Below are positions 2,476 to 38,564 of a stretch of DNA of 56,290 nt, in pieces. The notes under the pieces are model-generated. The model ran no database searches. It had not been told where the DNA came from and saw only the letters and a program-made list of their open reading frames with translations. The translations under genes were made by a program, and so were the position numbers. Numbering within the stretch: position 1 is the stretch's first letter; each line of letters begins with the position of its first letter. Location of the stretch: IMG/VR virus record IMGVR_UViG_3300042396_000233, positions 1 to 56,290 of that record; one strand, written 5' to 3'. Origin of the DNA: a virus.

Positions 2476-5400
2476 ATGTCAGGTGTTGAACTAGAGTTTC
2501 AATCCAACGCCAAATCCACGGAAAGAGATTTGGAGGCATTAAATAAGCAATTGAGATCGATATTCTCTACTGCAAATACCTCAAAAACTATTTTTCCTGA
2601 TTTAGCTCCAACATTAAGCAAAAACACGAAGGCTATTAAAAACTTCAGCAGAGAAGCTAATTCTGCAGGCAGAGATATTGATAGAACATTCGGAAGAATT
2701 ACAAATGGCATTCAAGCGTTAGGGTTATTGGGGCCTGCCCTGGATACATTATCAGCACCTCTGAAGGCCTTTAAAGGCTACGGGGATAGTGTTCTTAATT
2801 TAAATAGTAAATTACGTCTGGCGACAGACTCACTCGAAGAGTTTAATAAGTCACAGAGTGATGTGAAAGGCATCGCTAAAGACACAAAGAGCTCTTTGGG
2901 AGATATTGGCACATCATACGCAGGGCTTGCGCTCGTTCTAAAAGACAAAGGTTTCAATGGCGATGCATTGACAGAGTTGACTGCATCTATCACAAAAGCT
3001 GCCAAGCTTGGCGGTGGTCCGATAGACTCTATAAATGCTGCTTTGTTCCAACTGAGGCAGGGTTTAGGTGCAGATGCGCTACGCGGTGAGGAACTAAACT
3101 CCATCATCGAGCAGACACCATACTTGGCCAATATCTTGCGCAAAGGGCTTGGGATGACCACATCCGAGATGCGCAAGGCCGCAGCTGCAGGTGAGCTTAC
3201 CGCAGCCACAGTGGCTAATGCAATTACGTCAATGACAGACCAGATTGACAAAGATTTTAGTAAGTTGGCTGTCACATCTGAAGTAGGTGCTAAACGGTTT
3301 GAAGGTGCTCTTTCCAACATGTTAGGTGAGCTTAATGTTGCATTAGGTATTTCAGAAAATTCAGGCAAATTCTTATTGAAACTCGCTGATAAGATAGAGG
3401 CTTCCACGCCTACAATGATTGCGGCTATAACGAATCTTAAAGACAGATTACGTTCCAAATTCAACGAATTTAAGTTTGAGATACCATTATTGCTGGAAAT
3501 TTCAAAAGATTTTGTATTTGATAAACTACAAAAAGTAGCAGGAGCTCTTGATGTCAATATTGATTTTGATGTCTCAATAGATGCGCTAAAAAATTTATTC
3601 GAAGAACTGTCTATTACAGCAAAGAATGGATTGTCTCGATCACTAACCTATGTTAATGATTTCAGTGTGAAAGTCAGAAGAGCTTTTTTTGAAATATATG
3701 ATGAAGTAATAGGTCATTCATGGTGGCCTGATACCATTGATGGTGTGGTTGAGAAGACAAAAGACCTAGATGGTGTATTATCAAGTGTCAAAGACTTCGG
3801 TAAAAATATTGGTGGGCAATTCGCAGACGTATTTTCTAAAGTCGATTCAAGCAGTGTTAGTAAGCTAAGAGACTCATTAGCGTTGACGTTAGCAGATGTA
3901 GAACTGAAAGATGTTTTTGAAAAGATAGGCAACTCGTTAATTGTTGGCATCGCAGCAGCACTTGCTGTCACATCTGCAAGTCCGGTTTTTAATGCAATAG
4001 GGGGCCTGTTAACTATTGGGCTACTATCGGGGCCTATTGAGAAATCCGTTGAGTTGTTTGGCAACTCATTGGCCTTAACTCTCGGAAATGTGGCAGAGAC
4101 TATTGGTGTAGAGGTGGCTAGAGGTATCCAAACAGGCCTCAACTCTCTGTTCAAGATGATGCCTGGCTTTGTACACGGTTTCGTAGAGGAACTATCACCC
4201 TTACCAGACACGATCACAGATCTTTTCTTATCCGTAACACCTCTGACAAACTCTGCATTCTCGAGTCTCTTGGCCTTGAGTGCTGGATTAGCAGTTGTGT
4301 CAAAAGATTTTAGGAAAATGGCGAATACTGCTATATTAGGAAAGCCTGCTAAGGGGGCTCCGGGAGATAAAGGCTTTAAAGCTGCGGAGCCTGGATTGCT
4401 CTCCCTGGTAACCTCTGTAGAGCCCGGCGCATTGGCACGAAAGCTGTTTCCGACTTCTCTCCAAAAGACAACTGCATCAATAGGTGCCGCACTGTTGTCT
4501 ACTGCGTTACTTGAAAGCGTAGCGCTCTTTGACGCAGGTAGCGCCGCCCTGCCCTTCGTCGTGCATGCGTTCCTAGGCGGAGACCTAGGAGCAGAATCTT
4601 TCAGAAAGATTCAATTCTGGGTTGTTGGTACAATAAAGAAATTACTGGACTTTAACATCATTAAAATTCTGACTGAGGCGAGCGGGGGCTATGGGCCTCA
4701 ATCACCTACGCTCAAGAAAATCTCAGAGATAGTACAATCTTTGATTGGCAATCTAAAAAAATTAAAGAAGATGACTGTCAACACTTTCAAGGCTTTTGGG
4801 TCTAATTTTCGTGACTACATGGCTGGTAATATTTCGCTGAGGGATGCATTCAAATCAAGTCCCAAAGACGACGGTAAGAGTTTCGGTGACTTAGATTTTG
4901 TTGAAATCAAAGACGCACTCAAGAAGGGCTCGAAAAGAGCTTGGGATAACTTTCTAGGAGGCACGAAAGACGCATTTACCAAGGTCAAGAATTGGGCAAA
5001 GGACTTATTTTCAGGCATCTACGATAGAATCACAAAATTTGGAAAAGGTCTTGCCAGCGTATTTTCACCTACTAGTTTTGTAGGACTTGCTGCCATATTT
5101 TCAGGTGTGGCATTTGCAGGAGATGCCGCGACAAGCTCTACAAGAACCCTCACGAGTGAGCTTCTTATATTAGGCGGCACAGTGTTATTAGTAGGCAATT
5201 TGGTGGAGCGCTACGTCAAAGCCTATCGTTCTGTTGCAGGGGTACAGGCAGGGTTTTCTGCGGCTTCCGCGCTAATGGGTGCAGATCTTAAGAAGTTGGG
5301 TAGAGGTCTACGATCTGTGCTGTCGCTAGACACATGGAAGAAGTGGGGAAACTCTGCCAGATCAGTGCTGGCCACCGTATTTAAGGGTGGTTGGACTGCG

Positions 5401-23557: not shown

Positions 23558-24966
23558 GTCATAGAGCCAAAGAAATGCTTCTAAAAGCATTGGCCCCATT
23601 TGGAACTGAAAACTTCATAAAAATAGTAAAAGCAGTATATTTGTATGGTCAGCCTAAGCCAAAAGGGTGTCCGTACTTTTCTGAGTTTATAACCGCTGTT
23701 GGTTCAGCAGCAATGAAGGGTCCACGCGACTCTGCAAAGGCTGCTCAATTAGGTGCAGATATTGCTTCTGTCCTAGAGGATCATAAAGTTATCTCAGTAT
23801 TTCTAGGTGCAGGTTACTCCGGTCACCAGGCGTATCTAGTTAAGATTGAAGATAAACCTTTCTTGAATTACCTCTGGAAGCAAGTCCCCGTACACTCTGT
23901 TGGTAAAATACCTTCAAAATTGCCATTCAGAGATTGGGAGGAAGCGATAATGGGTCATGAAAAGCTAATACACTCCGAATATATGGGGTATTTCATGTCC
24001 AATACTACACACCCAATGGTGTTCAATTCTGTCAATCGTGCACAAAGAACAGGATGGAAAATAAACACAGCTATTATGAGGATAGGCAAGTGGGCCCTCA
24101 CAAGAAAGAAAGCTGCCTTTGATGATGTCTGGGAACGAAAAGGACAGGCAAAGGAGTCAAAGCAAAGAGAAGTTGAGTTACTATTAGCAATGAGTGAACA
24201 GTTTGGTAGTGATACCTTCTATCATGAGTATTATTATGATTTTAGAGGTAGACGTTATCCAGCTTCAGCTTACTTACATGAGCAGGGGACTGATTTCGCT
24301 AAAGCACTTCTACTAAGAAGCGAGGGAACACCGATAGGTTTCGGTGGCTATAGATGGTTATTACATATGCTAGCCACAACCTACGCTGGTAATTATGATG
24401 GTGAAACAAAGACAGATAAGTTACCTCGTGAATTGAGATGGGCGTGGGCAGAGGATAATGAAACAGCATTCCTATCATTTGCAGAAGATCCTAGAAAGAA
24501 TCAAGGCTGGATGGCGGCTGACGAGCCGTGGCAATTCCTAGCTTATTGTATCGATCTGTTTAATCTGAGAGTATATCAAGCTAAGCTTCAGGACTTTTCT
24601 GACTACGGTTATGTGAGTCATATGGTTGGATGGATGGATGGTTCTACTAATGGGTGTCAACATCTTACAGCCATGACTCGTGATAGATTGATGGCTCCTT
24701 ATGTGAATTTGACTCCTAGTGCATTACCTGGCGATCTATATGCTTATGTGGCTGAACATGTGTGGGAAGAGCTCTCTCACACTTGCAAGTATCCACTAGA
24801 AGATATAGAGAAACTTATTGATGATTTATTGGAGGTTAAGAAACTGGATGACTTAGATGTATTAAAAGCGTTCAGGAAGAAACATGCAAATCTTTTGAGC
24901 ATTGCTGCCCCGTATTTCTGGAATCGCGTAACCAGTCATAAGGAACGTAGAAAGATAATAAAGCGT
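23554..24966 (+). CDS. T7-like single-subunit RNA polymerase, exon 1
   Basis: Residues 1-471 of a 691-residue spliced polymerase (23554-24966 joined to 25218-25880). Recognisable T7 elements in order: YDFRGRRYPASAY near 228-240, matching the T7 DWRGRVY motif; motif A with catalytic Asp362 in WMDGSTNGCQH; and the start of motif B with Arg466 and Lys470. The unspliced frame stops at TAA 24967-24969, directly at the intron. Compared with T7 RNA polymerase (883 residues) about 175 residues are missing ahead of motif A, in the N-terminal promoter-recognition domain, while the spacing of the catalytic motifs is normal. Translation overlaps a tiny membrane peptide upstream. Confidence 0.92.
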
Positions 24967-25217
24967 TAACATGGCGCTTTTAAAACAGGGTGAATTCAGG
25001 AAATATCTCTATGAGACAATCCTGAGCCAAGCTTTTGTAGAAATACATTAGAAGGTGCAACGACTATTCCGAAAGGAAGTAGGATGCAAGTGTGTCCGAA
25101 GCGCCCTGCCTACTGATAATATGTAGTGATGATATAGTCTGATCTATGCAGTGATGCATAGCAATTTAGTTTTGTATACTAAATTGATGCTGCCTAACGA
25201 GCAGTATTAACAATTTG
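24967..25217 (+). ncRNA. Group I intron in the RNA polymerase gene (no ORF)
   Basis: 251 nt. The 5' exon end AAAGCGT (24960-24966) pairs with GCGCTTT (24974-24980), giving P1 with the required U.G at the splice site. TAACAT at 24967-24972 can form P10 with ATGTTA at 25219-25224. The conserved core elements are visible: TGAATTCAGG (24991), AATCCTGAGCCAAGC (25018-25032), GTGCAACGACTA (25055-25066) and GATATAGTCTG (25131), where GACTAT and ATAGTC form P7. A perfect AATTTAGT/ACTAAATT hairpin follows. The intron ends in G at 25217. Removing it restores motif B in frame. Confidence 0.93.
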
Positions 25218-30881: not shown

Positions 30882-31330
30882 ATAATGGTGTATGGAAATA
30901 CGACCGCCAAATGGGACAAAAACCTTATCTAGGCTTTGTATACATAGTGCATGATAAGTGGGCTAAACGGTACTACATTGGTAAGAAGTCCTATAAAGTT
31001 AAAAGAGGCTTGAAGAAGGGAGAAGAATCTGATTGGAGGACTTATAAGACTTCTTGTAAAGAGTTGAAGGATCATCTGGCAATCAGACCTGCTTCTGAAT
31101 TTGACTTCATTGTCTTAGGCGAATGTACTACATTGGGCGGGCTAGCATGGGCTGAGACTTTTCTTCAAACACTCTCTTGTGTACCGTTATCAAATGAATT
31201 TTATAACACAAGGATTGAGAGTATAACTTTCAAAGTAAATGAGGAGATTAATAAGGTTATTGTGAAAAATTGGAATAGCTTTTGGAAAGCGATTGGCAAA
31301 CATGAGCACTTATTGATATGGGAACGATAG
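30878..31330 (+). CDS. GIY-YIG-like nuclease
   Basis: 150 residues from ATG 30878. The core reads GFVYIVHDKWAKRYYIGKKS, a diverged GIY-YIG pair, followed by a SDWRTYKTSCKEL element like the W-x-x-Y segment after YIG in phage GIY-YIG proteins. A late Glu (WAETFLQTL) could be the metal ligand. The gene lies between exonuclease and primase-helicase where T7-like phages usually keep a junction resolvase, so it may serve as resolvase or be a free-standing homing endonuclease. It overlaps the primase gene by 13 bases. Confidence 0.65.
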   Translation: MNNGVWKYDRQMGQKPYLGFVYIVHDKWAKRYYIGKKSYKVKRGLKKGEESDWRTYKTSCKELKDHLAIRPASEFDFIVLGECTTLGGLAWAETFLQTLSCVPLSNEFYNTRIESITFKVNEEINKVIVKNWNSFWKAIGKHEHLLIWER

Positions 31331-33945
31331 TTGTAGCTGATCAACCTTGTCCCAAGTGTGATAGTAAGCAAGGCTGGAAGATATACGATGACGGCTCTGC
31401 TTATTGTTACGCTGCGGATTGTGGTCATTATGAGAGACCTGGTCACTTTGATTTAGATGGAAATGTTAGAGATAAAACTGGAGATGCTCCCAGAGCCCCT
31501 GTAAGTCCTAAGGAGTTACGGCCACCGTTCAATCCCGATGCATTCAAATCGCATGCCATTAGAGATCGGAAGATATCAAAAGAAGTTGCCGCATTTTATA
31601 AGGTGACTTTGGCATTTAATGAAGATGGCGATATTACTCATCATCATTATCCGTATGCGTTAGATACATGCTTTAAGGTGAGACGTGTAGCTGATAAGAA
31701 TTTTTATTGGGCAAATGGTAAATCATCTAATTTATTTGGAATTGATCGATTTCAACCTGGTGGAAAACGTCTAGTAATCACAGAAGGTGAAATAGATTGT
31801 CTTAGTGTAGCTCAAGCATCTTTCGAGCATTACAATAAATTCTATCCTGTAGTTGCCCTATCATCCTCCTCGATTGCTCACAAATCTTCAATGGCTCATC
31901 GAGAATTCATACGATCATTCGATGAAGTTGTAATAATGATGGATGAAGATGAGGCTGGTGCAGAGGCTGTTTCAGAACTGCTGAAGGTTATTGGGTATGA
32001 CAAAGCAAGAAAAGTAAAGTTACCGCTTAATGATGCGTCAGATGTATTGCGAAATTTGGGTGCCAAAGCTCTTATGCAGTCTGTATTTGATGCTGCTAGA
32101 ATAACTCCTGCTGGCATTTTAACAGGTGATCAGGTATGGAAGCAGCTAGTCGAATACAACTCCCGAAAATCTATACCGTATCCACCATGTATCGGAGGTG
32201 TTAACGCTAAGACCAAAGGGAAGCGTGGTGGTGAGATTGCGCTGTTTATATCAGGAACCAGTACAGGTAAGAGTACGGTATTGAGAGAAGACTTAATACA
32301 TACTTTGGAAATCACTGATGATATGGTCGGTGTAGTTTCTCTGGAAGAAGCTCCAGCTGAGACTGGTAGGAAATTGGCTGGCATGGCCATCAATCGAAAT
32401 CCTGCTTATGAGGAAATACCGATCGAAGATCTTAAACAAGGTTTTGATGAACTTTGGAAAGATGACCGGATTGTCTTATTGGATCATCAAGGCTCTATTG
32501 ATGATGAAGGTATTGTAGACAAACTAGAGTATATGATATTGTTAGGTTGTAAACATATATACTTGGATCATATTACGATACTTGTATCTGAAGGTGCAGG
32601 CGATCTTACCGGTAATGAAGCCATTGATAAAGTAATGAATGACTTATTACGTCTCGTGAAGAAATATCCAGAAGTTTGGATAGGACTTATATCGCATTTA
32701 CGCAAAGCCTCATTTGGTGGTAAATCATTTGAAGAGGGTCGGATGCCTTCCTTAGATGACATAAAAGGTTGTTTAGCGCTTAATACCAAGGTATTGTTAT
32801 ACAATGGAAGCAAGATTCCTGTACAGGATGTAGATGTTGGAATGCAACTAATGGGTGACGATGGTACTCCTAGAAATGTATTAAGACTCGCTAGAGGGGA
32901 GCAGCAGATGTATAGGATTAGTATGAAGACTTCTAAAGATTCTTTTATATGTAATGAAGATCATGTGCTGACGCTTTCACACAACAACCGTATCTTTGAT
33001 ATTTCTGTAAAGGAGTTCTTAGAAAAATCTGCCAACTACCAAGAACGTTGTAAGATGCATTATTCCTCTGGATATGAGTTACCTAAAAGAGAATTGTTAA
33101 TTCCACCATATGCATTCGGAGCATGGCTTGGTGATGGCTCAAAATCCGCATTTAGGATCATGGATGCAAGTGAGCTGGGCATTGCACAAAGGGTTGCTGA
33201 TGAAATTGAGGCTAAGATTTCCTGGCCTAATAACCGTAAAAGAGAGTATGTCAACTTCATAACGAATGAAAAAGGAGAGATGTTGGAGAAGTTAAGAAGT
33301 CTTAACGTGTTGAATAACAAACATATTCCTGTGCAGTATCGTTATAGCTCTATCGAAGATCGCTTACAACTGTTAGCTGGACTACTAGACACTGACGGTT
33401 CTTACTCTAATAGAGACGAGAATTTTTACTTTTACCAAAAAGATTACAAACTTGCAAGTGATGTTCGTGATATCGCTAGGTCCTTAGGTTTGTATAGCAA
33501 CTTACGTGCTCAGACTATAAAGGGTGCTTATAGTTCAAATGGCACTATTATCTATCAAGTTATGATATCTGGTAATATTTCAAAAATACCTTGTCAAAAG
33601 TCTAATAAGGTTCTGAGAGCATGTGATGCGTTGAAACGAGGCATAATTGTAGAGAAGCTAGATAAACAGCCTTACTATGGTTTTGTACTCGATGGTAATT
33701 CCCGTTTTCTACTAGGTAATCATATAATAACTCACAACTCAGGCTCAATCAAGCAAATCTCATTTGATGTTATCGGATTTGCTAGAAACTTAATGGCTGA
33801 GACTGTTGAAGAAAAGAACACAATGCAATTTTCAGTATTAAAATGTAGATATACTGGCTTAACTGGAATGGCTGGAGCTGCAACTTATAAAATAGCTACT
33901 GGTCGATTATACCCAGTGGATACCCAAGTAACTTCATTTGATTAG
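31318..33945 (+). CDS. Primase-helicase (T7 gp4-like) containing an intein
   Basis: 875-residue precursor; 552 residues remain after removal of the intein at residues 485-807. A zinc-binding motif (Cys11, Cys14, Cys30, Cys35) opens the primase, followed by a TOPRIM domain with Glu156 (VITEGEIDCLS) and an acidic loop MMDEDEAG. The helicase half has Walker A GTSTGKST (313-320), Walker B YLDHITILV and motif IGLISHLRK. After splicing, DDIKG joins SGSIKQISFD, equal to DLRGSGALRQLSD in T7 gp4. It unwinds DNA and makes primers for the T7-like polymerase. Confidence 0.95.
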   Translation: MGTIVVADQPCPKCDSKQGWKIYDDGSAYCYAADCGHYERPGHFDLDGNVRDKTGDAPRAPVSPKELRPPFNPDAFKSHAIRDRKISKEVAAFYKVTLAFNEDGDITHHHYPYALDTCFKVRRVADKNFYWANGKSSNLFGIDRFQPGGKRLVITEGEIDCLSVAQASFEHYNKFYPVVALSSSSIAHKSSMAHREFIRSFDEVVIMMDEDEAGAEAVSELLKVIGYDKARKVKLPLNDASDVLRNLGAKALMQSVFDAARITPAGILTGDQVWKQLVEYNSRKSIPYPPCIGGVNAKTKGKRGGEIALFISGTSTGKSTVLREDLIHTLEITDDMVGVVSLEEAPAETGRKLAGMAINRNPAYEEIPIEDLKQGFDELWKDDRIVLLDHQGSIDDEGIVDKLEYMILLGCKHIYLDHITILVSEGAGDLTGNEAIDKVMNDLLRLVKKYPEVWIGLISHLRKASFGGKSFEEGRMPSLDDIKGCLALNTKVLLYNGSKIPVQDVDVGMQLMGDDGTPRNVLRLARGEQQMYRISMKTSKDSFICNEDHVLTLSHNNRIFDISVKEFLEKSANYQERCKMHYSSGYELPKRELLIPPYAFGAWLGDGSKSAFRIMDASELGIAQRVADEIEAKISWPNNRKREYVNFITNEKGEMLEKLRSLNVLNNKHIPVQYRYSSIEDRLQLLAGLLDTDGSYSNRDENFYFYQKDYKLASDVRDIARSLGLYSNLRAQTIKGAYSSNGTIIYQVMISGNISKIPCQKSNKVLRACDALKRGIIVEKLDKQPYYGFVLDGNSRFLLGNHIITHNSGSIKQISFDVIGFARNLMAETVEEKNTMQFSVLKCRYTGLTGMAGAATYKIATGRLYPVDTQVTSFD
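32770..33738 (+). mobile_element. LAGLIDADG intein inside the helicase domain
   Basis: 323 residues. It starts with Cys1 (CLALNTKVLLYNGS), has a block-B-like NEDHVLTLS, and ends VLDGNSRFLLGNHIITHN followed by Ser as the +1 extein residue. Two dodecapeptide motifs, YAFGAWLGDGS and LLAGLLDTDGS, indicate a complete LAGLIDADG endonuclease able to drive homing. Boundaries are fixed by restoring the continuous T7-like helicase motif. Confidence 0.95.
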
Positions 33946-33953
33946 GAGGATTC

Positions 33954-34196
33954 ATGTCTACCAATAAATACTATGTACTAGCTGAAAGAGAAGGTATAAT
34001 CTTTGACTCTGCTAATACTTTTGCAGATGCCCTCGATATAGCAAAGGAAGCCGCCGCTACAGAACAGATGAGAGGCAAATGTGTTCAAATAGCGAAGGTT
34101 GTAGAAAGTATTGTGTGTGAAAATAGCTTCAAGCGTATTCCAGCAAGCTTGTCAGATACGCCTGATAGCTTACATTCACTGACTGATACGGATTAA
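33954..34196 (+). CDS. Unknown small protein
   Basis: 80 residues with TTAGGAGGATTC upstream, a strong ribosome-binding site. The layout is two strands, then a helix, then a flexible Ser/Asp-rich tail. No recognised domain. It follows the primase-helicase by 8 bases in the same operon. Confidence 0.6.
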   Translation: MSTNKYYVLAEREGIIFDSANTFADALDIAKEAAATEQMRGKCVQIAKVVESIVCENSFKRIPASLSDTPDSLHSLTDTD

Positions 34197-34200
34197 TCTA

Positions 34201-34371
34201 GTGGATGTACTCATTTCGGGCACATTGTTCTTTCTAGTATACATCAACTTCGGAAGAGGTATTGGCGAAGATTTCTTCAAGATCTCTAAACGCTATGGAA
34301 AATTTGCAAGACTTATATGGATATTGTTTTGGCCCTTAGTGTTGTTGGCACTAGCGGTGTGTTACCTGTGA
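34201..34371 (+). CDS. Small membrane protein (56 aa), GTG start
   Basis: GTG at 34201, only 4 bases after the previous stop. Two hydrophobic segments, LISGTLFFLVYIN and LIWILFWPLVLLALAVCYL, flank a basic loop (ISKRYGKFAR). No clear ribosome-binding site, so translation would rely on coupling. It fills an otherwise empty 197-base gap. Confidence 0.45.
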   Translation: MDVLISGTLFFLVYINFGRGIGEDFFKISKRYGKFARLIWILFWPLVLLALAVCYL

Positions 34372-34393
34372 AATATATAATTCAAGATTAGAA

Positions 34394-34687
34394 ATGGAAA
34401 TAAGAAAATTAACTGTAGAGTTTGAAATCCTTATGTTGACAGTTGATAATTTTGACCAAATGGTCAGTTTCGTTAACGGATCGATAAAAGGTACTAGGTT
34501 GCCTCCTATAAAACGTGAGATAGAGTATCGTGGGTTGAATGATGAAGAATGTCGCATATGTGTAGGTGATGTTGCTTTTAAATCACGACTCGGCATATTT
34601 CACACTTCCACACATGCCTTGCTGTATACTCTAGGCATGCCAGAATTTAACGATCTTATATATGCTAATAAATCTACAAGGATTTAA
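34394..34687 (+). CDS. Unknown protein, first of a tandem related pair
   Basis: 97 residues. The C-terminal half (GDVAFKSRLGIFHTSTHALL) resembles GDWLLKTELGVFHMTDDSIM of the next gene. No named domain. The 26-base overlap with the next gene argues for coordinated expression. Confidence 0.55.
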   Translation: MEIRKLTVEFEILMLTVDNFDQMVSFVNGSIKGTRLPPIKREIEYRGLNDEECRICVGDVAFKSRLGIFHTSTHALLYTLGMPEFNDLIYANKSTRI

Positions 34688-34964
34688 GCTGACAAATGAA
34701 AGTCGACACGAAGCTGCTGCTTTTAGTAATGGTATTTGTAGCTGGTACAAAGGTAATGCAGCAATAATATATGGCAAGTCAGATTCAGAAATTGCATATA
34801 TAGGTGATTGGTTATTGAAAACAGAATTAGGTGTATTCCATATGACAGATGATAGTATAATGAATGCCCTGGGTTTGCAGTGGGATTTGCAATCCGGTCC
34901 AACAACCATGGATGAAATACAATTGCTAATGAAAGAAAAGGTATTGAATGCAACTAACTATTAA
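34662..34964 (+). CDS. Unknown protein, second of a tandem related pair
   Basis: 100 residues, from ATG 34662 within the end of the previous gene. The central GDWLLKTELGVFHMTDDSIM matches the preceding protein in spacing (GD, K, LG-F-H), suggesting duplication. The last 17 bases overlap the ribonucleotide reductase start. Confidence 0.55.
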   Translation: MLINLQGFKLTNESRHEAAAFSNGICSWYKGNAAIIYGKSDSEIAYIGDWLLKTELGVFHMTDDSIMNALGLQWDLQSGPTTMDEIQLLMKEKVLNATNY

Positions 34965-35986
34965 CGATTTGCCAAAAATTGAGACTCCGTGGTCTACTGT
35001 CGGTTACCTTACCTACAAGCGAACATATAGTCGCAAAATGGAAAACGGTCAGCAAGAAGAATGGCCGGATACGATATTACGGATAATAAACGCCTCTGAA
35101 ACCCAGCTAGGCGGTGTCTTCTCGAAAGATGAAGCAATAAGGTTAGCAGAATATATGCTACAGCTAAAAGCATTTCCTGCTGGCAGATTCTTGTGGCAAT
35201 TAGGAACTCCTACAGTTGATCGTTTAGGATTATCTTCTTTGCAAAACTGCGCGTTTAAGGTGATAGACAGCCCTGTCAGACCTTTCTGTTGGGCCATGGA
35301 TATGCTAGGATTAGGCTGCGGTGTAGGTTTTAGCATTCAACGACAATATGTTGAAAAGCTACCTCCTGTTAAATCTTGGTTTAAACCCCCTACACGAGTT
35401 GATCACGGTGGTGCTGATTTCATCATACCAGACTCGCGTGAGGGTTGGGTAAGGTTCTTAGGTAAGACCCTGAAAGCAGCTTTCTTGAGTGATTCTGCTG
35501 AGAAGGGAACCTTTACGTACTCAACACAAGCTATACGTGGTAAAGGTACACCAATCAAAGGATTTGGCGGGGTGGCTTCTGGGCCTGAAGATTTATGCAG
35601 AGGTCTTCAGCAAATTTCAGAAGTCTTGATGAAACGTCGCGGTCGTAGTGTAAGGCCTATCGATTGTTTGGATGTCATGAATATCATTGCTGCAATAATA
35701 GTTGCAGGCAACGTTAGGCGATCTGCTTTGTTGTGCATTGGTGATCCTGATGATATTGAATATTTGTTGGCCAAACGTTGGGACTTAGGCAATATTCCAC
35801 CTTGGCGCGCTATGAGTAATAACAGTGTTGCTTGTAGCGATCTAGAGGATTTGCACGAATACTTCTGGGAAGGCTATAAAGGCAATGGAGAGTGTTATGG
35901 TCTGATAAACCCAGAACTCTCTAGAAAAGTTGGTAGATTAGGTGATACTAGATATCCTGATCCAAAAGTAGTTGGATATAATCCGT
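34948..35986 (+). CDS. Class II (adenosylcobalamin-dependent) ribonucleotide reductase, exon 1
   Basis: 346 residues plus the first base of codon 347. The spliced protein (34948-35986 joined to 36706-37595) has 642 residues. Features of the monomeric B12-dependent class are LGTPTVDRLGLSSLQNC with Cys101, LGLGCGVGFSIQR and AGNVRRSALLCIGD. It reduces ribonucleotides to deoxyribonucleotides for phage DNA synthesis. Only this single subunit is present, agreeing with the cobalamin-dependent class, so the host must supply adenosylcobalamin. The unspliced frame would end in YNPFH and a stop inside the intron. Confidence 0.9.
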
Positions 35987-36109
35987 TTCACTAGCAGGCG
36001 GATTTAAAATGACGTGAATTCGGGGAACACCTCACGTAGGCAATCCCGAGCTAAGCTAGACCCGCCAAGTTGTATATTAACTGACATGACTACTAGAGGA
36101 GTGTCATAA

Positions 36110-36397
36110 ATGCGTCAAGTGATTTTTAAACAAACACCTATAAATACTCAACCAGCTGTAGGCTCTCTTATGAGGAGTCGGCTTACAGGTGACTTTATAA
36201 ACATAGTTCTAAACATCTCTGATACATTATTTGATGATGATGGTTTTAAATTCAGATTCATTCAGAGTGTTCGTTATGCCAAAGTGTCTAAATCACTTTC
36301 GGATAACGATACAGCAAATGTGACATATTTAGATGGAACACGCTCACGAGCTAATAACAAAAGATTTAAGTTAAAACAGAAACCTTGGCGGGTTTAG
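36110..36397 (+). CDS. Intron-encoded unknown protein 1
   Basis: 95 residues, with GAGGAG 10-15 bases upstream of the ATG. It lies in the intron ahead of P7. The protein is basic at the end (RSRANNKRFKLKQKPWRV) and has none of the LAGLIDADG, GIY-YIG, HNH or His-Cys motifs expected of homing endonucleases. It may be a diverged maturase or nuclease, or an unrelated passenger. Confidence 0.55.
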   Translation: MRQVIFKQTPINTQPAVGSLMRSRLTGDFINIVLNISDTLFDDDGFKFRFIQSVRYAKVSKSLSDNDTANVTYLDGTRSRANNKRFKLKQKPWRV

Positions 36398-36436
36398 AAA
36401 GTGTAGAGACTATCGAAATTCTATAGGAGAGTGTTA

Positions 36437-36649
36437 ATGAGAAGTATATGCCCAAACTGTAGTGGTACGGGAAAAGATCCCAAAGTAAAACAGCCTAAAC
36501 CAGGAGACGGTGTAATCTACTGTACCCATTGTAATGGTGACGGCAATGACACCTGGGCAGACTTTTTAGAGAACTCAAATCGTAGAAGAGTAGAGTACAC
36601 CCAAGCGGGTGGAAGCGCGTCACAAGATGATATAGTCCGATCTGCATAG
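36437..36649 (+). CDS. Intron-encoded zinc-ribbon protein 2
   Basis: 70 residues from ATG 36437, preceded by AGGAGAG. Two CxxCxGxG-type motifs, CPNCSGTG and CTHCNGDG, about 24 residues apart, form a DnaJ-like zinc ribbon. The rest is acidic then basic. It occupies the intron between the two P7 strands and its last codons overlap the 3' P7 strand. A similar CPDCKGTG/CQSCLGSG protein is coded at 38331. Not a recognised homing endonuclease. Confidence 0.55.
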   Translation: MRSICPNCSGTGKDPKVKQPKPGDGVIYCTHCNGDGNDTWADFLENSNRRRVEYTQAGGSASQDDIVRSA

Positions 36650-36705
36650 TGATATGTAGCAGTCGAAAGACGGGCACGAATTAGCGAATCGTGTTGAACA
36701 AAATG

Positions 36706-37595
36706 GTGCAGAACAAAGTTTGGAAGATTTTGAAACATGCTGCCTAGCAGATATTAATCTTCCAGCTATTACTAGTTTGGGTGAGTTCCTTGATATATCC
36801 CAGCTGGTTTATCGATTAAATAAACACAGTCTGATGTTAAGCAGCCATCAGAAAGAAACAGAAGAAGTTGTACATCGTAATTTGAGGATGGGTATTGGAT
36901 TAACTGGTATTTGTCAAGCTTCTGACTTACAGATGGGTTGGTTGAATGAAGCTTACGAGTTCCTACGTACAACTGATGAAGAATACTCAGCATTACGTGG
37001 TTGGCCTACTAGTATCAAACTGACAACTGTAAAACCTAGTGGTACCTTATCATTACTGCCCGGTGTTACCCCCGGTATCCATCCTGGATTTGCTCAGTTT
37101 ATGCTAAGAAGGATACGGATAGCTGCTGAACATCCGTTAGTAACAACTTGTACTGATCATGGTTATCCGGTCGAGTTCGCTAAGAATTTCGACGGTAGTT
37201 TGAATTATGGTACTTGTGTTGTTACATTTCCTTTCAGATATCCGGATGGTACGGTTCTGGCAAGAGATGTCACAGCTATTAAACAGTTGGAAATGATCAG
37301 TCGCTTACAAGCCAATTGGTCTGATAATTCAGTGTCTTGTACTGTGTATTATAAGCCGGAAGAATTACCAGCCATACGCTCGTATCTGGAAAAGAATTAC
37401 ACTAATGGTATAAAAACTGTTAGTTTTATGCTGCATTCTGATCATGGTTTCCTTCAAGCTCCTTATGAAGAAATATCAGAAGAGGCATATAATAAGCTTG
37501 TAGCAAGTACACGCGTGATTAACTCAGTACCAACTTGTGTTGAAGAAGAGTTGGCTGCGGAAGATTGCGAAAAAGGCGCTTGTCCTATTCGTTAA
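36706..37595 (+). CDS. Class II ribonucleotide reductase, exon 2
   Basis: Residues 347-642. The spliced junction gives NPCAEQ with Cys347 and Glu349, equivalent to the radical Cys408 and Glu410 of the Lactobacillus enzyme, and Cys358 eleven residues later, equivalent to Cys419. TTVKPSGTLSLLPGVTPGIHPG is the conserved substrate-phosphate region. The protein ends DCEKGACPIR, whose C-x4-C pair (634, 639) is the swinging thiol pair that re-reduces the active site. A terminator follows. Confidence 0.9.
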
Positions 37596-38330: not shown

Positions 38331-38564
38331 ATGAATGCTGCTAATGTAGCTAGTACACATGATGATAATTTACAAGCGTATCTGTGTCCAGATTGTAAAG
38401 GTACTGGAAATAGTCAAACAGAGTGTGAATCCTTTTGTCAGTCTTGCCTTGGCTCTGGTGTAAATCCTGCTGTGTTTGATAAAGAGGATAACAAAGACCT
38501 AGATATATTTTTAGAGAATGATTTCCATGATGACTATGATGATTACGAGGATTTGTATGAGTAA
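38331..38564 (+). CDS. DnaJ-like zinc-ribbon small protein
   Basis: 77 residues with AGGAGGTAAC upstream. Two CxxCxGxG motifs, CPDCKGTG and CQSCLGSG, about 20 residues apart form a zinc ribbon like the DnaJ central domain, followed by an acidic tail rich in Asp, Glu and Tyr. The motif pair resembles the intron-encoded protein at 36437. The role is unknown; such proteins often bind nucleic acid or partner proteins. Confidence 0.65.
   Translation: MNAANVASTHDDNLQAYLCPDCKGTGNSQTECESFCQSCLGSGVNPAVFDKEDNKDLDIFLENDFHDDYDDYEDLYE

Follow-up and report, generated by a model that had tools for sequence, protein, structure and literature searches.

A virus record from an uncultured phage, analysed here over its full length of 56,290 bases (the window), carries nrdJ, the gene for a class II ribonucleotide reductase (RNR), split by an insert of 719 nt within the codon for Cys347. 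The insert is very probably a group IA self-splicing intron situated at a recurrent homing-target codon, with its original endonuclease either lost or supplied in trans. It would represent a clean case of a homing site placed on a catalytic radical residue, and makes testable whether the bias of such elements for active-site codons is caused by endonuclease targeting or by mere retention.

The interrupted reductase gene

Exon 1 of nrdJ (34948–35986; plus strand, as are all features of the gene and its intron) ends with the first base of the Cys347 codon, and exon 2 (36706–37595) opens with its last two bases. The codon is broken in phase 1 by the insert at 35987–36705, the 5' exon ending AAT CCG T before intron TTCACTAGCAGGCGGATT... 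and the intron ending ...GTTGAACAAAATG before exon GT GCA GAA CAA. When joined, the exons form a single frame of 642 residues with no internal stops and with NPCAEQ at residues 345–350, in agreement with the coordinates, length and junction proposed in an earlier note on this DNA. That note also held that the enzyme cannot work without splicing. The unspliced open reading frame (34948–35994) reads NPFH and meets a stop at 35992–35994, directly past exon 1, and Cys347 can be made only if the RNA is spliced.

The spliced protein belongs to PHROG 367 (E 5.4e-129) and matches the Pfam domains Ribonuc_red_lgC, RNR_Alpha and RNR-II_ins_dom, all above cut-off. Its best annotated phage match is from Podoviridae sp. 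MW202701 (61.7% identity), and its best solved relative is the Lactobacillus reductase RTPR (1L1L; E 1e-68). Cys347 aligns with C408 of this structure, and Glu349 and Cys358 fall on E410 and C419, so the spacing of these residues put forward in the earlier note is borne out. Cys408 of RTPR is the residue that carries the thiyl radical. Judged by this active-site pattern and its class II domains, the nrdJ product is a class II RNR of the RTPR type, for which adenosylcobalamin-dependent activity is predicted.

Identification and anatomy of the intron

By its frame, anatomy, likeness to phage introns and P3 pairing, the insert is a group I intron, as the earlier note had proposed; its self-splicing is deduced from these features. 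The identification is based on the match to known phage introns and on P3 pairing rather than on the Rfam score. The Rfam group I model (RF00028) did not report the insert at the gathering score, and a lenient search gave 21.3 of 50 bits, with a match that begins only past the first internal reading frame and misplaces the 5' half. The 3' 116 nt of the intron match 173 phage records, 19 of them with a single place that spans at least 80% of the query; the 60 matched records listed include td, DNA polymerase, terminase and primase/helicase genes. Twelve matching phage introns were retrieved, and comparison with them gave the anatomy P3, P4, P5, P6, P7, P7.2, P9, P9.1 and P9.2. Assignment to subgroup IA is our reading by likeness to td-type introns; the accessible text on the Pf-WMP3 DNA polymerase intron calls that one IA2 (PMC3428280). 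The phage IA introns of JN377894 and MH460461 (td) and of KF192075 and MT354570 (DNA polymerase) share with the nrdJ intron the 3' domain P7.2-P3-P7-P9-P9.2 and the 3' end. The td, DNA polymerase and terminase introns tested also have P3 GUG/CGC with four covarying pairs. Unlike the nrdJ intron, these phage introns occupy other genes and sites and retain P8 by eye, and several encode annotated HNH or GIY-YIG endonucleases. An identical intron is found in two further contigs, those of loci L036 and L037, the former from a near-identical virus (99.4% and 98.1% identity over two stretches of about 15 kb).

The 5' junction is placed by P1 (35980–36004), in which exon AAUCCGU (35980–35986) pairs with the guide GCGGAUU (35998–36004) and the splice site is marked by U35986.G35998. 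The 3' junction is placed by the terminal G36705 together with the reading frame. Likeness to relatives locates P4 (36020–36024 with 36045–36049, 5 bp) and P5 (36030–36040), the 5' strand GACUAUC of P7 (36408–36414), the P7.2 hairpin CACCCAAGCGGGUG (36598–36611), the 3' strand of P7, GAUAUAGUC (36629–36637), and the terminal helices P9 (36642–36659), P9.1 (36661–36672) and P9.2 (36675–36693). The longest helix, P6/P6a, joins 36056–36069 to 36384–36397 over 14 bp. Helices of at least 14 bp were reached in 19 of 200 shuffles, and P6/P6a is therefore supported by its position and not by its length. A P4–P6 domain, placed by position, is present, as is the P3–P7 pseudoknot core, with GACUA/UAGUC in P7 and P3 strands UGACGUG (36010–36016) and CGCGUCA (36616–36622) that form seven of seven pairs.

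P3 was evaluated across the family with strands taken at fixed places beside sequence motifs. From 118 candidates, 95 were dropped as lacking the P4 text motif within 1400 nt upstream and one as a duplicate, which left 22 distinct introns with both motifs. All seven pairs form in 21 of these 22, as against 5.2% of mismatched partners, and four of the seven positions show three or four pair types; the limits of P3 had been set by eye beforehand on some of the introns later tested, and some of the 22 are closely related. The exception, L128- at 3304, has four of seven pairs and was kept in the count, though we suspect that the 5' half assigned to it belongs to an adjacent intron.

The nrdJ intron departs from its relatives in helix P8. 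Only 11 nt lie between GGAAGCG and GATATAGTC, and since P3 uses seven bases, the 6 nt CAAGAU remain between P3 and GAUAUAGUC where relatives have P8; a mini-P8 with two pairs (CA/UG) may form there. Scanning IMG/VR with a pattern yielded at least 123 places, the window included, of which at least 106 pass filters for the P7.2 and P9 stems and at least 98 also carry the GTAC/ATAC block. Among the matches listed, 96 of 98 have 19 nt or more in the P8 region, the two with 11 nt being the window and L165. A directed scan for the short form returned 19 contigs. By eye 15 of these look real, and L281, L283, L287 and L291 were set aside as chance matches. Ten distinct short-P8 introns result, the window's and nine others (L165, L280, L282, L284, L285, L288, L290, L292 and L293), with 6–7 nt between P3 and GATATAGTC by eye. 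An automatic flag marks the 5' strand of P3 in three of the ten, along with two spurious places in L282, and inspection by eye finds a 7/7 strand with a P4-like stretch after it in nine of the ten (not L280). Such a search often meets 7-nt matches by chance, which makes it weaker than the 22-intron test, where the P8-less form is represented by the window and L285 only.

Because nine other distinct introns share the short form, the loss of P8 is read as a variant and not as exclusion from group I. As P8 normally belongs to the core, splicing could nevertheless be weak or need help. Natural P8-less group I introns might form a working phage sub-class that includes the window's, with the full seven P3 pairs and 6–7 nt to GAUAUAGUC (P7 and its approach), a possibility that we entertain tentatively. 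If it holds, the ribozyme has done without a helix usually drawn as part of its core, and the list of helices that a splicing group I ribozyme needs would change. No paper on P8-less group I introns was found in a literature search that was thin in subscription journals.

Recurrent insertion at the Cys347 codon

Among 55 nrdJ loci, collected partly through the motif PFCWAMDM, the tblastn match is broken at the Cys347 codon in five (L036, L037, L043, L044 and L052) and further on, at about residue 360, in L055. Intron-free relatives, the comparison suggested by the earlier note, are provided by 37 of the 55, which at 50% identity or more read through uninterrupted over residues 40–600; the remainder are partial or more distant. 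A separate collection of 80 loci was picked partly by NPCAEQ and is unusable as evidence of absence. Locus L042, which ends at the intron site, was considered as an intron polymorphism and dropped, its last bases continuing into the Cys and Ala codons.

A different intron occupies the codon in L043, L044 and L052, where it encodes a LAGLIDADG_2-like protein (Pfam E 3.5e-18 for L043; the proteins of L044 and L052 are 77% and 70% identical to it). A scan with these LAGLIDADG proteins, which reaches close relatives only, placed all eight loci recovered (L066–L073) in nrdJ directly after Pro346; three of them are the contigs of L043, L044 and L052, and L073 ends before its 3' exon. The splice falls one base into the Cys codon in L066, L068, L070, L071 and L073 (the last judged from its 5' side), and lies one base earlier, before the codon, in L067, L069 and L072, whose proline codon is CCT. 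Where both are visible, the offset tracks a proline codon ending in T (L067, L069 and L072) or G (L066, L068, L070 and L071). These introns share with the window's their gene, their codon and about 30 nt of P7–P9, which are 76–90% alike in five of the seven complete introns compared. In contrast to it, all seven complete ones lack the GGAAGCG/P7.2 block, carry an endonuclease gene and keep P8 by eye. Owing to the absent block and the retained P8, they are read as a separate lineage.

More distant relatives of the LAGLIDADG protein occur in eight cultured-phage records, which count against strict site loyalty of this protein; the two inspected (L074 and L075) have no match to the window's reductase. 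At 2558–3633 of L075 (FBPa8), such a relative adjoins a gene of about 100 codons annotated as an RNR beta subunit, possibly a split R2.

The equivalent cysteine is also hit in a class Ib enzyme. The NrdE of Goe13 (MT601274, SPbeta-like) contains an intein with a recognizable N-terminal signature, inserted directly before this residue (SNL/C...N/CSEV); it differs from the intron in the window in being a protein splicing element in a class Ib RNR. Through Twort, the cysteine at the intein site aligns with C388 of Salmonella NrdE (1PEM), the residue with the thiyl role in that enzyme. The nrdE of Twort itself (NC_007021) resembles the window's nrdJ as a phage RNR gene with group I introns, and differs in being of class Ib and in that, by eye, its equivalent stretch SNLCCEV is uninterrupted and the breaks lie elsewhere. 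In the accessible part of one account these introns are said to sit near functionally important residues (PMC3653736). Given that other phages have another intron in this codon and that an intein occupies the equivalent cysteine, the insertion in the window reflects a recurring target and is no isolated event, and the Cys347 codon appears to be a spot that mobile elements have repeatedly targeted in related viruses.

The earlier note described this as the most constrained codon in the gene, which overstates the case: conservation of the insertion site is high, not highest. Across the 37 uninterrupted relatives the site ranks 122 of 1859 in variability at ±8 nt, 41 of 1851 at ±10, 125 of 1843 at ±12, 379 of 1831 at ±15 and 603 of 1812 at ±20. 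This ranking is the less biased one, as its loci were not picked through NPCAEQ; they were chosen partly through PFCWAMDM, whose codons rank best there. A rank of 3 of 1833 at ±10 nt in a set of 113 loci is biased, many of these having been chosen through NPCAEQ.

A preference of group I introns and inteins in phages for conserved sites is described in the portions available of two studies (PMC2814812, PMC3653736), the second of which names RNR as the nucleotide-metabolism gene most frequently interrupted by group I introns in phages and includes two split nrdJ cases. Excerpts of other work note that functionally critical residues are often encoded at homing sites (PMC3984707) and that, in R2, inteins and introns cluster at the metal ligands and the radical tyrosine (PMC8772380). 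Within the partial texts that a literature search could reach, no paper was found that names an intron in the thiyl-cysteine codon. Since the SPbeta-like intein shows that cultured phages too are hit at this site, the nrdJ intron is regarded as a new instance of a known phenomenon, with a structural variant. What is new is that two unlike group I introns have struck this codon in class II nrdJ and an intein the equivalent cysteine of the class Ib homologue, that the window's intron carries two small reading frames but no recognizable endonuclease, and that P8 is missing from its core.

Splicing, homing and other splicing elements

Two small reading frames are now carried by the nrdJ intron. 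ORF1 (36110–36397, 95 residues) lies in the P6a loop, ends in the 3' strand of P6a and belongs to no known family. ORF2 (36437–36649; 70 residues from ATG, or 72 from GTG at 36431) lies between the 5' strand of P7 and P7.2 and runs over the 3' core. Neither matches a Pfam family at E ≤ 0.001, and no endonuclease family, whether LAGLIDADG, HNH, GIY-YIG or another, appears among their matches to Pfam or PHROG up to E 10. ORF2 has a zinc-ribbon-like CxxCxG and a weak likeness, below cut-off, to the DnaJ CXXCXGXG repeat (E 0.0012). Homologues were absent from phages at E ≤ 0.1 and, in IMG/VR, were confined to the contigs of L036 and L037 in a search that covered contigs with short exact peptides in common. 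We make no claim that ORF2 is a paralogue of the window gene at 38331, since a nine-residue CPxCxGTG motif is all that links the two.

Excision would proceed by two guanosine-initiated transesterifications that remove the 719 nt and restore TGT as the codon of the thiyl-radical cysteine. As homing endonucleases are directed at sequences encoding invariant residues, the Cys347 codon would be a target of repeated homing in this group of phages, and the endonuclease that brought the intron may since have been lost or be supplied in trans. Both splicing in vivo and this homing history are what we infer from the features described; the link to homing is indirect, because no endonuclease is recognizable in the nrdJ intron and the LAGLIDADG protein has distant relatives elsewhere.

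Split RNR genes that dispense with splicing are reported in the accessible text of one survey (PMC3653736), and the halves of nrdJ could likewise be made as separate, assembling chains, as is reported to happen with nrdA of Aeromonas phage Aeh1. Exon 1 does meet its own stop, and exon 2 offers a TTG start codon at 36720. Both halves would be without Cys347, however, and chance would have to explain the group I anatomy and the exact in-frame junction, which makes such a gene in pieces extremely improbable. Degeneration of the intron, in which the loss of P8 leaves splicing inefficient and nrdJ a pseudogene or nearly so, is also improbable, if less drastically. It would account for CAAGAU in place of P8, in a family where nearly all places listed have a longer region, but the exons are open and align along 1L1L, P3, P7 and P9 are intact, other phage introns have the short form, and the intron is identical in three contigs.

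A slightly better, still small, chance is given to regulation, with splicing tuned by translation of ORF1 and ORF2 or by the state of the host and the intron serving as a switch on dNTP supply. GGAG-like stretches precede both reading frames, which extend into P6 and the 3' core, where ribosomes could influence folding, and ORF2 in particular, as it crosses the 3' core, could interfere with it when translated. Against a special role, overlap of this kind is already known from other introns, as stated in the accessible part of one report (PMC3984707). Regulation would be compatible with the preferred explanation, that of a self-splicing intron at a recurrent homing site.

Several invariant motifs of phage nrdJ carry splicing elements. 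Inteins with a C-terminal signature precede Ser259 in L071 (2481–3648) and Thr460 in L069 (5021–6160). In L055 (2403–5108), an N-terminal intein signature falls at the cysteine pair matching C419 of RTPR, and a C-terminal one immediately precedes the counterpart of Cys101.

In the window, a second group I intron (24967–25217, 251 nt) splits a T7-like single-subunit RNA polymerase between KR and NVMT, which corresponds to R632/S633 of T7 RNA polymerase. Its Rfam match (74.5 bits; 24907–25161) begins 60 nt before the 24967 junction, and one of these 5' ends must be off; P1 pairing and frame favour 24967. At 31318–33945, a primase-helicase gene has an intein-like Hint and LAGLIDADG insert by Pfam, whereas NCBIfam shows none. 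With the intron in nrdJ, three replication or transcription genes of the window are thus split. The contig G001 (69,540 bases, L298) of the near-identical virus contains three further group I intron matches at 34041–36685, in a stretch that has no counterpart in the window.
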